Positions 17,339 through 23,268 of a stretch of DNA of 37,066 nucleotides are shown here, piece after piece. This DNA is from a virus. The position numbers and the translations under genes are program-made. The notes beneath the pieces were generated by a model. That model did not search any database. It was not told the DNA's origin and worked only from the letters and a program-made list of their open reading frames with translations. Numbering within the stretch: the first letter of the stretch is position 1; the number at the start of each line of letters is the position of its first letter. The stretch spans positions 1 through 37,066 of IMG/VR virus record IMGVR_UViG_3300018476_000010; one strand, given 5' to 3'.

Positions 17339-17631
17339 GCTGCCCTCCGCGTCTCGAGCACGTACGCGCGCCCGTCCAGCACCGCCCATGCGAGCGCCTG
17401 CTCGTCCTCACAGCGCAGCGCGTCTGCAGCCTCGCGGCCGAGCGCATCGCCCGCCGGGCACTCGGCCAGCACCTCAAGGCGCGCGTCGCCGTGGCGGTCC
17501 TCCCAGGCCTGCACGTCCACGTAGGCGGTCTCGTCGCCGCGCTCGAGCTGCAGGCGGTAGGCGTGGTCGCCATCGTCGGGGCCGACGACCGAGACGATGC
17601 GCCAGGCGGGGCTGGGTACTACGCAGTTCAT
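17335..17631 (-). CDS. First gene of the leftward early operon, hypothetical
   Basis: The 98-residue acidic protein begins at ATG 17631. The ATG starts 6 bases after a good -10 box, so the mRNA should begin at or next to the start codon and have no ribosome-binding site. The operator at 17630-17642 includes the start codon itself. No fold is recognised. Being the first, leaderless gene of the arm, it could be an early regulator such as an antiterminator, but no Arg-rich N motif is present. Confidence 0.65.
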   Translation of the reverse strand: MNCVVPSPAWRIVSVVGPDDGDHAYRLQLERGDETAYVDVQAWEDRHGDARLEVLAECPAGDALGREAADALRCEDEQALAWAVLDGRAYVLETRRAA

Positions 17632-18400: not shown

Positions 18401-18931
18401 TCAGCCCTTGGGCTTACGTTTTTGCGCGAGCTTTCGGTCTGTTTCTGCAGACATTTCAATGCCTATCAGGGCTTCCGAGCGCGTAAGGCGTTTTTGGATC
18501 ATGTACAGCATGCCTTCATAGAATGCCGCGGTGGGCTCTGACCCATCTGGCACTACGATAGACACGAGTGCCACCCGTTCCGCTTCGGTGATAGCGCGGC
18601 CAATCGGCGATTCGCGGAACTCGTGCCACGCCTTGTAGGGCGGGTCTGTCCCAGCGATCACGTAGTCTCTGTACGAAGCTGGGTTGCGGATCCCGTAGAA
18701 AAAGTCGCGGTGCAGGCGCAGATGCGCGCACGCCTTCTCGATGCTGTCGGCCCCCACTGTGACGCGCACGCTGCGCGCCAGGATCGAGATGTAGCTGGGG
18801 TTCACACCCAGCCTGCGTGCGACACGACTCTTCCACCCGTGCTCTGGCGCTCCCTCTTCTGCGCCCAGCTCTTCAATTAATTGCAGGAATCGCCTGTTCG
18901 CCCGCTCGGTCGTAGCCGTCACGACGGCCAT
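18401..18931 (-). CDS. CI-like repressor with XRE-type helix-turn-helix
   Basis: I start at ATG 18931. The longer frame to 19183 would run through the rightward promoter and the Cro-like gene. The 176-residue product has a helix-turn-helix at about 33-53 (GWKSRVARRLGVNPSYISILAR). The fairly hydrophobic C-terminal part may mediate oligomerisation. There is no visible Ser/Lys autoprotease (S24/LexA) signature, so RecA-driven self-cleavage is unlikely as a means of induction. No Shine-Dalgarno precedes the ATG. Divergent placement from a Cro-like gene across a promoter with dyad operators is the standard immunity layout of lambdoid phages. The repressor role is inferred from this. Confidence 0.8.
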   Translation of the reverse strand: MAVVTATTERANRRFLQLIEELGAEEGAPEHGWKSRVARRLGVNPSYISILARSVRVTVGADSIEKACAHLRLHRDFFYGIRNPASYRDYVIAGTDPPYKAWHEFRESPIGRAITEAERVALVSIVVPDGSEPTAAFYEGMLYMIQKRLTRSEALIGIEMSAETDRKLAQKRKPKG

Positions 18932-18947
18932 GTTCGCGCGAATATTC

Positions 18948-18976
18948 TTGACAGTGGATACAGGCGTATTTATGAC
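18948..18976 (+). promoter_or_regulatory. Rightward early promoter (PR-like)
   Basis: A consensus -35 TTGACA (18948-18953), a 17-base spacer and -10 TATGAC (18971-18976) lead directly to the Cro-like ATG at 18983, 6 bases after the -10 box. The transcript should be leaderless or nearly so, exactly as at the leftward promoter. Confidence 0.8.
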
Positions 18977-18984
18977 TTTGTCAT
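18972..18984. promoter_or_regulatory. Operator OR (perfect dyad ATGAC-TTT-GTCAT)
   Basis: This is the same 5+3+5 dyad as at 17647. It covers nearly the entire -10 box and the first two bases of the Cro-like start codon. A possible half-site, TTGACAGTG, coincides with the -35 region about 25 bases upstream. Confidence 0.75.
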
Positions 18985-19288
18985 GAATCGGAGGGGACGG
19001 AAGGGCAGGAACGCACTCGTCAGGCTGCGGCGGTGGTTCCGCGACTCGGGCCTGAGCCAGACCCACTTCGCCGACCTCATCGGTGTGAGGCAATCCACCA
19101 TCAGCCACATTTTCGCGGGGCGCCGTGGGGTCGGCTTCCTCGTTGCGACTCGGATCGAGGCCGCGTCCAGACCCTGGCAACACGGCCCTATCCTACGCAC
19201 TGAATGGTCATGTCACTGGCATACGGGAGAGTCGGACTTCCGTCAATCCAGCCAAGTTGAGGCCCCTGCGTCCCGCGAGGCCTCGTGA
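18983..19288 (+). CDS. Cro-like XRE-family regulator, leaderless
   Basis: ATG 18983 lies just downstream of the promoter. The upstream in-frame extension to 18881 would begin before the promoter and is rejected. The product has 101 residues with a canonical helix-turn-helix at about 24-45 (LSQTHFADLIGVRQSTISHIF) followed by AGRRGVGFLVATRIEAA, the end of an HTH_3 domain. The C-terminal 35 residues are low-complexity and may be a disordered tail. As first gene of the rightward early transcript and opposite the repressor, it probably binds the same ATGAC-NNN-GTCAT operators and favours lytic growth. Confidence 0.8.
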   Translation: MNRRGRKGRNALVRLRRWFRDSGLSQTHFADLIGVRQSTISHIFAGRRGVGFLVATRIEAASRPWQHGPILRTEWSCHWHTGESDFRQSSQVEAPASREAS

Positions 19289-19637: not shown

Positions 19638-20462
19638 TTGCGAGTGGTGGACGTCGAGCATGCGAGCGGGCCGGGCTGGGACCTGCATTGCGGGCGCTGG
19701 GAAAGCGCGCTGTCGCATGTGGGCGAGGTGGACGCGCTGATCGTCGACGCGCCTTACTCGGAGCGGACGCACGCGGGACAGCGGCACGGGCGGCGAGACG
19801 GCGCTCAGTGGGTCGAGTCAGAGCAGCGCTGGGCATCTTCGCGAGGCATCGGCTACGGCCACATGGCAGCGTCAGACGTCGTTGACTTCGTGTCCGCGTG
19901 GGCGCCGCGCACCCGCGGCTGGTTCGCGAGCCTCACTGACAGCGAGCTTTATCCGGCGTGGCGCGACTCGCTGCGCAGCGCCGGGCTGTACGTGTTCGCG
20001 CCGCTTCCCTGCGTGCAGGTCGGCATGAACGTGAGGCTTGCGGGCGACGGCCCGAGCAACTGGACGTGCTGGATCGTCGTCGCTCGGCCTGCAGCGCTAC
20101 ATAAGTGGGGCACGCTGCAGGGCGGCTACTGGGGCAACCCGTTCGACGCCGGGCAGAACACGGCGACCGCGTCACGACGCTCGGGCGTTGTCGGCAGCAA
20201 GCCTCTCTGGCTCATGCGCGCCCTGGTCCGCGACTACACCCGTCCAGGCGACCTTGTCTGCGACCCCTGCGCAGGCGGTTCGACGACTTTGCTCGCCGCC
20301 GTGATGGAAGGCCGGCGTGCCATCGGCGCGGAGATGGACCCTGCTCATTACCTCATAGGCAAGCGCCGGCTTGAGCGCGGGTTCACACCCCCTCTTTTTA
20401 CCGAACGCCGCGCCGCTCCCGTGCAGCAACGCCTTTTGGGGGATGACGATGACGCTCCCTAA
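19638..20462 (+). CDS. DNA methyltransferase (N6-adenine/N4-cytosine type)
   Basis: The open frame is 274 codons from TTG 19638. GTG 19644 or 19647 may be used instead, with AGGGGG just upstream. The catalytic motif IV reads VDAPYS (residues 36-41), a DAPY in place of DPPY. The AdoMet-binding motif comes last, as VCDPCAGGSTTL (207-218) followed by GRRAIGAEMDPAHY, in the order of the beta-class (motif IV before motif I). Such phage enzymes protect the genome against host restriction or mark regulatory sites. No partner restriction gene follows, so it is probably a solitary methylase. The next gene, an HNH nuclease, overlaps by 20 bases. Confidence 0.85.
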   Translation: MRVVDVEHASGPGWDLHCGRWESALSHVGEVDALIVDAPYSERTHAGQRHGRRDGAQWVESEQRWASSRGIGYGHMAASDVVDFVSAWAPRTRGWFASLTDSELYPAWRDSLRSAGLYVFAPLPCVQVGMNVRLAGDGPSNWTCWIVVARPAALHKWGTLQGGYWGNPFDAGQNTATASRRSGVVGSKPLWLMRALVRDYTRPGDLVCDPCAGGSTTLLAAVMEGRRAIGAEMDPAHYLIGKRRLERGFTPPLFTERRAAPVQQRLLGDDDDAP

Positions 20463-21024
20463 CCCGCGCTCGAACGCTGGCGGCGCCGAGTTCTCGCTCG
20501 AGTGGCTGCGGTCTAACACGCGCGCGACGACGCACGATTGCTGGGAGTGGCTCGGGAACCGCGACTCGAAGGGCTACGGCAAGGTCCGTATCGGGCGGCT
20601 CGTTCGCCGCGTGCACCGCCTCGCCTACGAGCTCGCGATCGGGCCCATCCCCGATCGACTCGTGCTCGACCACAAGTGCCGGAACCCGTCGTGCTGCAAC
20701 CCCGACCACCTCGAGGCGGTCACGACGCAAGAGAACACGAGGCGCGGCGAGTCGCTTGTGTACGTGGGCGGGACGTGCCCGCGGTGCGGCTCGAGCAAGC
20801 TCTACAAGGCCCGCTGGGGGCACCGCTGCGCGGGGTGCCTGCGCGCCTATGAGAGCACGCCAGAACGGGCTGAGAAGCGTCGCGCGTACGAGCAAGAGCG
20901 GGCAAAGGACCCGCAGCGTCAGGAGCAACGGCGCGAAGCTTGCGCCCGCTACAACGCCCGCAAGCGTGCCGAGAGCGCAGGCCGGCCGGCGGAACAGCTC
21001 GAGCTGGCGGGGGGCGAGAAGTGA
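20443..21024 (+). CDS. HNH endonuclease with C-terminal zinc ribbon
   Basis: ATG 20443 (or 20449, better spaced from GGGGG) lies inside the methyltransferase end. The roughly 193-residue protein has the HNH_3 core VLDHKCRNPSCCNPDHLE around residues 65-82, where Asp/His, Cys pairs and the final Asn-x-x-His make a beta-beta-alpha metal site. A preceding WEWLGNRDSKGYGKVR segment is typical of this family. CPRCG and CAGC near 110-135 add a zinc ribbon, and the C-terminus is a basic helix. Free-standing phage HNH enzymes may be homing nucleases or aid packaging or recombination. Its place beside the methylase is far from the terminase, favouring the former. Confidence 0.85.
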   Translation: MTMTLPNPRSNAGGAEFSLEWLRSNTRATTHDCWEWLGNRDSKGYGKVRIGRLVRRVHRLAYELAIGPIPDRLVLDHKCRNPSCCNPDHLEAVTTQENTRRGESLVYVGGTCPRCGSSKLYKARWGHRCAGCLRAYESTPERAEKRRAYEQERAKDPQRQEQRREACARYNARKRAESAGRPAEQLELAGGEK

Positions 21025-21212
21025 CCGCCGCCCTCGCCTACCGCCTGCGCCTGGTCGTGGACCGCGACTCGAAGCCCGCCAGCGCCCGCCACGACGGCGA
21101 CGGGGCATGGGCGGCCTACGAACGCAGGAAGGCCGTCCTGACCCGCACAGCGCGCTCGGCGGCGGAGTACGAGCGCGAGCTCGGGCGCATCGCAGACGAG
21201 GAGGGCGTGTGA
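21021..21212 (+). CDS. Small basic protein, unknown
   Basis: GTG 21021 overlaps the HNH stop (GTGA) and gives 63 residues. The product is helical and mixed-charge, with no known family. It is linked by overlap to the initiator-like gene next in the operon. Confidence 0.5.
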   Translation: MTAALAYRLRLVVDRDSKPASARHDGDGAWAAYERRKAVLTRTARSAAEYERELGRIADEEGV

Positions 21213-22012
21213 GGCCTGGCTGGATCAAGATGCCGCTCGAGCCGGCTGGCCGGTGGCTACGCCTCCCGGCGCTCACCCGGGCGCTCGGCGCCGAGCTGTT
21301 CCGCCTGTGGCAGGACCGGGTGCTTGAGGGGCTCACGCTTGGCGAGGCGGAGGGCGTCGTGGTGCGCGCCCTGGGCCCGGACAAGCGCGAGCGCAAAGCC
21401 CTCCGGGTGGCCGTCCGCGACATCGTGGAGGCGGGCCTTTTGGTCCCCGTCGAGGGGGGGATCCAGCTCCTCTATACCGCCGAGTCTTACGCTGCACATG
21501 GGCGCTATGTGGGACGTAAGGAGGACGCATCAGGTACGCAAGGGGTACGTACAGGGGACGTAAGGGGTACGTATGGTGGTCAAACAGGTGAGGCTAAGTC
21601 TGCAGAATCATTTGACCGCGATCTGCAGAGAGAAGAGAGAAGAGAGAGAGAGAACGCGCGCTCGCGCATACGCGAGGGAGAGCCCCCGCCTGAGCGTCTG
21701 ATCCCCGTGCTGCTCGAAGAGCTTGGGAGCGAGGCGTTCGAGCGCAACCTCAGGCCAGCTCCGGCAGCGCCCCCGAGCCAGATGCGGACCGCGGCGGAGC
21801 GGGTCCAGTCGCTCGTGCAGGCCGGCACGTTCCCCGGGCCCAGGGAAGCCGCCAGGGCGCTCGTGCGGGCCGCTCTAGACCTGGTGCGGGACCACAAGCG
21901 CCCCTTCGGCCTGGCGCTCCTGGACGCCACCGTGGCGCCGCCCCCGCAGCCCGTCACGGAGGCCGACCTGCGGCCCAAGCGGCCCTCGTGGTGGCAGGAG
22001 GAATCGGCATGA
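21209..22012 (+). CDS. Replication initiator-like protein (lambda O-type role) carrying the iterons
   Basis: The gene starts at GTG 21209 within the previous stop region and is followed by DnaB with an ATGA overlap. It has 267 residues. The N-terminal 90 residues look like a winged-helix domain: WIKMPLEPAGRWLRLPALTR, then helices, and LLVPVEGGIQLLYT as a wing. This is the form of many phage replisome-organiser N-termini. The middle (about 100-150), coded by the iteron array and a purine tract, is low-complexity and charged. The C-terminal part is helical. By analogy to lambda O, an initiator that binds iterons inside its own gene and loads helicase is the most economical reading. The family is not confirmed. 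Confidence 0.65.
   Translation: MRPGWIKMPLEPAGRWLRLPALTRALGAELFRLWQDRVLEGLTLGEAEGVVVRALGPDKRERKALRVAVRDIVEAGLLVPVEGGIQLLYTAESYAAHGRYVGRKEDASGTQGVRTGDVRGTYGGQTGEAKSAESFDRDLQREERRERENARSRIREGEPPPERLIPVLLEELGSEAFERNLRPAPAAPPSQMRTAAERVQSLVQAGTFPGPREAARALVRAALDLVRDHKRPFGLALLDATVAPPPQPVTEADLRPKRPSWWQEESA
21511..21576. repeat. Six tandem 11-bp iterons, putative replication origin
   Basis: Six units of consensus GGKACGYAWGG follow each other with a period of exactly 11 bases. Their ACG cores start at 21514, 21525, 21536, 21547, 21558 and 21569. The units differ at only a few positions (GGGACGTAAGG, AGGACGCATCA, GGTACGCAAGG and so on). One unit per helical turn places all sites on one face of DNA, as expected for an initiator array. 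The array lies inside the initiator-like gene directly upstream of the helicase gene. Confidence 0.75.
21627..21654 (+). other. 28-base all-purine tract beside the iterons
   Basis: An uninterrupted run of A and G (mostly AG repeats) begins 51 bases after the iteron array. The DNA between is the least G+C-rich stretch of the neighbourhood (CAAACAGG...AATCATTTGACC). Such tracts and soft regions often accompany DNA unwinding elements. That role is inferred. Confidence 0.5.
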
Positions 22013-23268
22013 CCCTGCTCTGCGACGAGATGCTCGAGCGCAAGGTGCTGGGTTCGTGCCTGCTCAAGCCCTCGCTGCTGCTCGAGCTGCCGCTCACGGA
22101 GCAGCACTTCGCGGGCAACGTGCACCGCACGATCTGGTCGCAGCTGCTCTGGCTCCATGCCGAGGGCCAGGGCGTGGACACGGTGCGGCTGTACGAGCGG
22201 TTGTCCAGCGTGGGCAAGCTCGACGCCGTGGGCGGCCACGGCTACCTGCTCGAGCTCACGGACACGGTGCCTGACTCGAGTCCCGCCACGCGCAGGCTGG
22301 ACGAGCTCAAGCGCCTTCGGCAGCTGGACGAGCAGGCGCTCAAGCTCCGCCGAGCGTGCGAGCAGGGCAAGCTCGAGCAGGCGGAACAGCTCGCGGCCGG
22401 GCTCGGCGTGTTCGCGGTGGAGGCGCCCGAGCACGAGCCGCTGGTCACCGCGTGGGGCTGCGCCGAGCTGGTCTACGACGAACTGCACGGGCACTCGAAG
22501 CGCGTCGTGGAGGTCTACCCGGGGCTGCCACTTATGGCCGAGCTCGTGGGCGACCTGCCCGTGGGCAGCGTGACCGTGCTCGGCGCTGACACGAACGTGG
22601 GCAAGAGCTCTATCGCGCTCGAGATGCTGGTGGGCGCCGCATCAGCCGACGTGCGCGGGGCGTACGTGTCGCGCGAGGACCCGCGCTTGCTCGTGGGGCG
22701 CAAGTTTCTGGCGATGCTGAGCGGTGTGAAGCCGCGCAAGATTCGGCCCGGCAAGCTGGAGGACGCGGACTGGCATCGCCTCTCGCACGCCGCGCAGGTC
22801 ATTCAAAGCTTTGGCTCGAAGCTCGTGGTGAGCCAGCGACGCGGCGGCAGCGACGTCGACACGTGCGCCGCCATGACGCGCGCCGCGCAGCAAGGCGCAA
22901 AGCTTGTCGTGGTTGATTACATCCAGGCGATCCGTAAGGCTGCAAAGGCGCAAGACCGGCGCAACGAGATCTACGAGGTCGCGCAGACCATCGCGGCGCA
23001 CGCGGACCGCATCGGCGTGGCGCTCGTGCTCCTGTCGCAGCTCACGATTCCTAGCGGCGCGAAGGCCACGGACGAGCCGCAGAAGCACTGGCTCAAGGAA
23101 TCGAGGGACCTCGCGAACATGGCGGACAACATCATCCTCGCGCACAGGAACGAGGAGAACCCCTACGCCCCGATCTACCTGCGCCACGTCAAGGGCAAGG
23201 AAGAGTTCGGCGCGCGCTGGACCATGCAGCGGAACGCGAAGACGGGCCGACTGGAGGAGCACCGATGA
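22009..23268 (+). CDS. DnaB-type replicative helicase
   Basis: ATG 22009 overlaps the initiator stop (ATGA). The product has 419 residues. The N-terminal helical domain (about 1-130) reads DEMLERKVLGSCLLKPSLLL, as in DnaB. The RecA-type ATPase domain has the Walker A GADTNVGKSS (192-201), the SRED loop (about 221-224) and the Walker B LVVVDYIQAI (299-308), followed by LLSQL and the Arg-rich C-terminal hairpin. It unwinds DNA at the phage replication fork as a hexamer. A phage-coded helicase explains the absence of a lambda P-like loader. No separate primase is seen, so host DnaG is presumably used. Confidence 0.93.
   Translation: MTLLCDEMLERKVLGSCLLKPSLLLELPLTEQHFAGNVHRTIWSQLLWLHAEGQGVDTVRLYERLSSVGKLDAVGGHGYLLELTDTVPDSSPATRRLDELKRLRQLDEQALKLRRACEQGKLEQAEQLAAGLGVFAVEAPEHEPLVTAWGCAELVYDELHGHSKRVVEVYPGLPLMAELVGDLPVGSVTVLGADTNVGKSSIALEMLVGAASADVRGAYVSREDPRLLVGRKFLAMLSGVKPRKIRPGKLEDADWHRLSHAAQVIQSFGSKLVVSQRRGGSDVDTCAAMTRAAQQGAKLVVVDYIQAIRKAAKAQDRRNEIYEVAQTIAAHADRIGVALVLLSQLTIPSGAKATDEPQKHWLKESRDLANMADNIILAHRNEENPYAPIYLRHVKGKEEFGARWTMQRNAKTGRLEEHR

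Follow-up and report, generated by a model that had tools for sequence, protein, structure and literature searches.

A row of six 11-bp iterons and the unstable, purine-biased tract that follows it lie in the middle of an initiator-like gene directly ahead of dnaB, and together they are read here as a putative phage replication origin embedded in its own initiator gene, with a probability of roughly 0.83. The window, meaning the whole stretch of viral DNA analysed, is 37,066 nucleotides long. An origin candidate at this place had been put forward in an earlier note on this DNA, and on sequence grounds the reading is well supported by the anatomy of the locus and by the recurrence of its layout inside phage replication initiator genes. 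The features concerned, all on the plus strand, are as follows.

21209..22012, +, initiator-like gene of 267 aa with a GTG start, an open reading frame known by its translation and named by architecture and position only
21209..21510, +, presumed N-terminal DNA-binding domain, codons 1-100, from a low-confidence single-sequence model
21511..21521, +, iteron 1, GGGACGTAAGG, from the sequence
21522..21532, +, iteron 2, AGGACGCATCA, the one with the weakest flanks, from the sequence
21533..21543, +, iteron 3, GGTACGCAAGG, from the sequence
21544..21554, +, iteron 4, GGTACGTACAG, from the sequence
21555..21565, +, iteron 5, GGGACGTAAGG, the same as iteron 1, from the sequence
21566..21576, +, iteron 6, GGTACGTATGG, from the sequence
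21577..21654, +, presumed unwinding region, low in GC and ending in a 28-nt purine run, from GC content and nearest-neighbour stability
21655..22012, +, presumed C-terminal domain, which would recruit the helicase, deduced from how the parts are ordered in related initiators
22009..23268, +, DnaB-type replicative helicase gene, from Pfam and PHROG matches

The start of the initiator-like gene overlaps the upstream open reading frame by GTGA and is preceded by a Shine-Dalgarno-like GAGGAGG at about 21198-21204. At its other end, the stop codon overlaps the dnaB ATG (ATGA), with AGGAGGA just upstream, and the helicase is recognized by matches to PF03796 (1.1e-26), PF00772 (4.9e-15) and phrog_19 (6.9e-36), which bears out the earlier placement of the gene before DnaB. 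Further upstream of the initiator, an open reading frame resembling a DNA methyltransferase (19638-21024, plus strand), in which the match covers the C-terminal part only, has an overlap with an HNH endonuclease open reading frame.

The six ACG cores are found at 21514, 21525, 21536, 21547, 21558 and 21569, exactly 11 bp apart, and thus the strict phasing that had been noticed between 21514 and 21569 was confirmed to the base. All six units, which fill 21511-21576, share xGKACGYA, with ACGYA as the core, and the differences from unit to unit fall outside xG-ACG-A; the palindrome TACGTA is present only in units 4 and 6. When the array is compared with itself, the match is 0.64, 0.68 and 0.62 at lags of 11, 22 and 33, while the other lags tested up to 39 give 0.15-0.35. 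It is the top-scoring tandem repeat of the window (score 77) and its strongest 44-nt periodicity; Rfam and tRNA searches of the window returned nothing. Six phased ACG cores appeared in none of 3000 versions of the gene in which codons were permuted within the gene and the protein was kept fixed, nor did six phased ACGYA cores, for which the best permuted version reached five, once; when codons were resampled from the usage of the window, six phased ACG cores appeared in 3 of 3000. As 11 bp is not a whole number of codons, successive cores fall in each of the three reading frames by turns (RK, DA, TQ, RT, DV and TY), and the array is thus a repeat of DNA with no corresponding protein repeat. 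The protein segment that it encodes had been described as low-complexity, which is only partly right: codons 101-123 of the 267 read VGRKEDASGTQGVRTGDVRGTYG.

The DNA that follows the array is softer, as had been remarked. GC content is 0.50 at 21550-21649 versus about 0.75 in the flanks within the gene, by nearest-neighbour stability the 50 bp at 21605-21654 are the least stable in the gene and rank third in the window among distinct sites of low stability, and the 28-base purine tract is exact, at 21627-21654. The lowest stability in the window is reached at 18940, and another low-stability site is found at 17617. Cumulative GC skew, suggested earlier as a check for an origin peak, does have a minimum near 19 kb, a weak signal that lies about 2.5 kb off the array and follows gene direction. 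In the region of about 18900-19000, this minimum and the stability minimum at 18940 stand together beside a helix-turn-helix regulator open reading frame (18881-19288), and the region is likely a promoter or switch region.

These other soft sites bear on the best-placed of the competing explanations, itself improbable, in which the array would be an operator for its own operon or a fork block and the phage would start replication elsewhere. Sites lined up at the head of a helicase operon, within its first gene, could indeed act as a roadblock, and 18940 and 17617 offer other places of low stability. Nevertheless, the array lies between the parts presumed to encode the N- and C-terminal domains, with an unstable tract beside it and a helicase gene as neighbour, all of which matches the plan of the lambda and Sf6 origins, and no comparable array was seen elsewhere in the window.

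From the arrangement as an origin, the following mechanism may be inferred. The N-terminal domain of the initiator would bind the six 11-bp sites, one molecule per helical turn, so that six molecules would form a straight row on one face of the DNA. Strain of this complex would then open the unstable purine-biased DNA just downstream, and the C-terminal domain would bring the phage DnaB, product of the next, translationally coupled gene, to the opened DNA, where replication would start.

To assess recurrence of the array, viral contigs were scanned for runs of four ACGYA cores spaced 11 bp apart, and at least 119 contigs had one. In 85 of the 119 listed contigs (86 with the window) the array lies mid-gene in a same-strand open reading frame of at least 180 aa. 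Since peptides encoded by the arrays could by themselves join these open reading frames, the clustering was repeated with the array masked, and among the matches listed 77 of the 85 still formed one blastp-linked group (80 when unmasked). PHROG names in the 77-member group are DnaD-like helicase loader, replication initiation protein, O-like and primosomal protein, and the Pfam matches include DUF1376 (18), Lin1244_N (3) and Phage_rep_org_N (1). Grouping of the array-bearing genes by the N-terminal domain alone separates DnaD-like (56), DUF1376 (17) and Lin1244 (3) proteins, one pair, and single orphans, the window among them. Examined for 57 of the relatives, the downstream proteins include 14 with DnaB_C, 7 with Toprim, 4 IstB/DnaC, 2 DnaA ATPase and 1 lambda P, and GC is lower right after the array in 26 of 28 genes of the ACGYA set. 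The window shows the layout of these 11-bp-phased phage initiator genes, with at least four units mid-gene, cores in all frames, a low-GC tract and a helicase gene next.

The raw count of 11-bp arrays was rejected as evidence, as controls at 10 bp and 12 bp also returned more than 100 contigs each. Judging by the contigs compared, the discriminating feature is the location of the arrays in initiators and not their number: control arrays rarely lie in related open reading frames (6 of 117 at 10 bp and 8 of 120 at 12 bp, with reference initiators drawn from the 11-bp hits, a choice that favours the 11-bp result somewhat), and it is therefore 11-bp phasing, not mere repetition, that appears to mark initiator genes. 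A scan of the whole collection for three copies of the window's own motif, GKACGTA, returned nine contigs, two of which have the array in initiator-like genes (L333 and, on the opposite strand, L334); in the remaining ones it lies outside large open reading frames or within short ones. Some examples of arrays in other settings are those of the viral contigs L016 (997-1069) and L052 (3269-3330), both with a GC content of about 0.41, in which six to seven near-identical (T/C)GGACGTAA(G/C)T copies at 11 bp are outside any large same-strand open reading frame and so outside an initiator gene, and that of the minus strand of L336, where near-perfect TTGGACGTACC units follow one another at 11 bp, nine or more in all, at the extreme end of the contig.

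A second set of initiators was chosen by protein similarity alone, which removes the 11-bp selection bias for the DnaD-like group only; 80 loci were fetched and 35 non-redundant ones were analysed. Beyond the N-terminal domain, the best period other than multiples of three is 11 in 26 of these 35 genes and 22 in another 6, which makes 32, while a lag of 11 or 22 is best in just 4 of 35 N-terminal domains, 1 of 33 next genes and 1 of 33 upstream regions. The DNA immediately behind the array is poorer in GC in 31 of 32 and richer in purines in 31 of 32. Mid-gene arrays at 11 or 22 bp are found, for example, in Sf6, Staphylococcus Henu2, Lactobacillus Lc-Nu, Pseudomonas KLEP17-4, Shewanella 3/49 and Bacillus 000TH010; the best period is 12 in Listeria A118 and 23 in Vibrio 1.167. 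The cores vary by lineage (AACGCA, AACAAAC, GGACATCAGAC, CCGACCAATCT and others) and the spacing is fixed, as would follow if every initiator recognizes a site of its own.

These genes also weigh on the idea, slightly less probable still than an operator, that the array arose incidentally, through slippage and tandem duplication, in a tolerant linker-coding region, with selection on the flexible linker only and no function as DNA. In one DnaD-like relative (L061), a structural model predicts a disordered stretch at residues 107-139 and the array occupies codons 107-129, so that it would encode a disordered linker of the kind in which repeats are tolerated, and in the window iterons 1 and 5 are identical. 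An 11-bp unit, however, rotates the frame and yields unrelated peptides, and yet phase and core are kept while the cores pass through all three reading frames in 28 of 28 representative genes, which agrees with the earlier suggestion that selection acts on the DNA; moreover, 11 or 22 bp is preferred in 32 of 35 genes chosen regardless of repeats, and the differences among the window's units are confined to positions outside xG-ACG-A. The least probable explanation, in which the array lies in this gene by chance and serves host-protein binding, partition or segregation, can appeal to the use of short phased sites by other DNA-binding proteins and to the 11-bp ACGTA arrays outside large open reading frames in L016 and L052, but 11-bp arrays are strongly tied to initiator genes and their cores change between initiators, and for both reasons the cognate initiator is the likely binder.

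The window protein resembles phage initiators by anatomy, and its membership of a family is unsupported by sequence. Searches of Pfam and PHROG gave no family for it, tblastn gave no matching phage genome, and homology to the DnaD-like group, L022 or L333 was not detected. Against the DnaD-like profile (PHROG 186/2514), its N-terminal domain scores -2.2, at the level of shuffled sequences, with an hhalign probability of 1%. No close relative turned up in viral contigs for the initiator, DnaB or terminase, nor in genome contigs for DnaB, and the terminase has distant Pelagibacter-phage matches only. The structural model is poor (mean pLDDT 47) and places helices at 19-40, 44-55 and 59-75 and strands at 78-81 and 84-87, an order of elements that is compatible, at low confidence, with a winged helix; a Foldseek search with it gave nothing useful. 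In the L061 model, by comparison, the N-terminal domain is compact and predicted with confidence (most blocks have a pLDDT of 79-95), and its top PDB hits are winged-helix regulators, with probabilities of up to 1.0 and E values of 0.02-0.1. What seems unusual in the window is thus an initiator with no detectable relative.

The tracts next to the arrays are diverse among relatives. Eighteen of 28 are periodic beyond shuffles, with periods that vary from 2 to 9, and a DnaA-trio-like three-nucleotide stepping motif is unsupported as a general feature. Perfect or near-perfect 6-bp repeats (ACCAAT, ACCAAG, CTAGAC, CAACGT and AGATAT-like) stand directly 3' of the iterons in L045, L038, L055, L023 and L119. 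A second array, of 7-bp AACCAAG or AACCAAT units, lies mid-gene in DUF1376 proteins of L338 (Thalassomonas BA3), L339 (Acinetobacter AbP2), L341, L343 and L344, where it is the strongest or near-strongest period of the gene and in several cases follows weaker 11-bp repeats; since seven is not a multiple of three, it also looks selected as DNA and is perhaps an unwinding element.

Few phage origins have been mapped so far, and the phase rule (11 or 22 bp, mid-gene, then an unstable tract, with the period found in 32 of 35 initiators) could allow origins and initiators to be called in uncultured phages, even for initiators that, like that of the window, have no known relative. That dissimilar N-terminal families, orphans included, share as a general design the 11-bp phasing of short iterons between the initiator domains, with a short-period unwinding tract after them, is a proposition for which the chances seem evenly balanced. 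If true, phage origins would be predictable from raw sequence by phase alone, for any motif or protein family. It would also raise the structural question of how different N-terminal domains fit a straight one-turn row versus the longer lambda iterons. The intragenic iteron origin is already known as a kind; in the open-access literature, outside which most older and subscription journals lie, no description was found of 11-bp phage iterons, a one-turn rule across families or DUF1376 origins, and single 11-bp cases have likely been described before.

Among known systems, DUF1376 (PF07120) phage proteins account for 17 of the ACGYA array genes, with core CGAACGCAATG and the array mid-gene as in the window; their N-terminal sequence is unrelated to that of the window protein, and in several named members the 11-bp array is followed by one of 7-bp AACCAAx units. 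DnaD-like or replisome-organizer initiators (phrog_186 and phrog_2514; Henu2, A118 and Lc-Nu) likewise carry a mid-gene 11- or 22-bp array, 12 bp being best in A118, and a purine-richer, low-GC tract after it, but their cores differ and the N-terminal domain of the window does not score on their profile. The Sf6 gene 43/HK022 gene 54 module combines an O-like initiator with its own DnaB helicase. As in the window, the Sf6 gene 43 iterons (TGTCCAACGGT) are spaced at 11 bp within the gene, after about 120 codons, with dnaB next, and these units fall inside an annotated rep_origin (putative origin) described as 'reminiscent of the phage lambda origin'; unlike in the window, the core is different, the iterons form two blocks, and the two proteins share no detectable similarity.

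In lambda, the iterons lie in the middle of the initiator gene O and are followed by an AT-rich tract that is dispensable for O binding and crucial for unwinding (PMC7466680), which fits the division of labour proposed for the window. The window is alike in having iterons inside the initiator gene, between two presumed domains, and an unstable strand-biased tract adjoining them. Lambda has four iterons that contain a 19-bp imperfect inverted repeat (PMC7466680) and a separate loader, P, whereas the window has six 11-bp sites and a phage DnaB. The earlier suggestion of an initiator type different from that of lambda therefore holds for the unit, 11 bp and not a 19-bp inverted repeat, and less so for the layout, which is widespread and includes the lambda-reminiscent Sf6 gene 43. 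By analogy, the locus would be an intragenic iteron origin like that of lambda, of a type phased by one helical turn that is common rather than unique.
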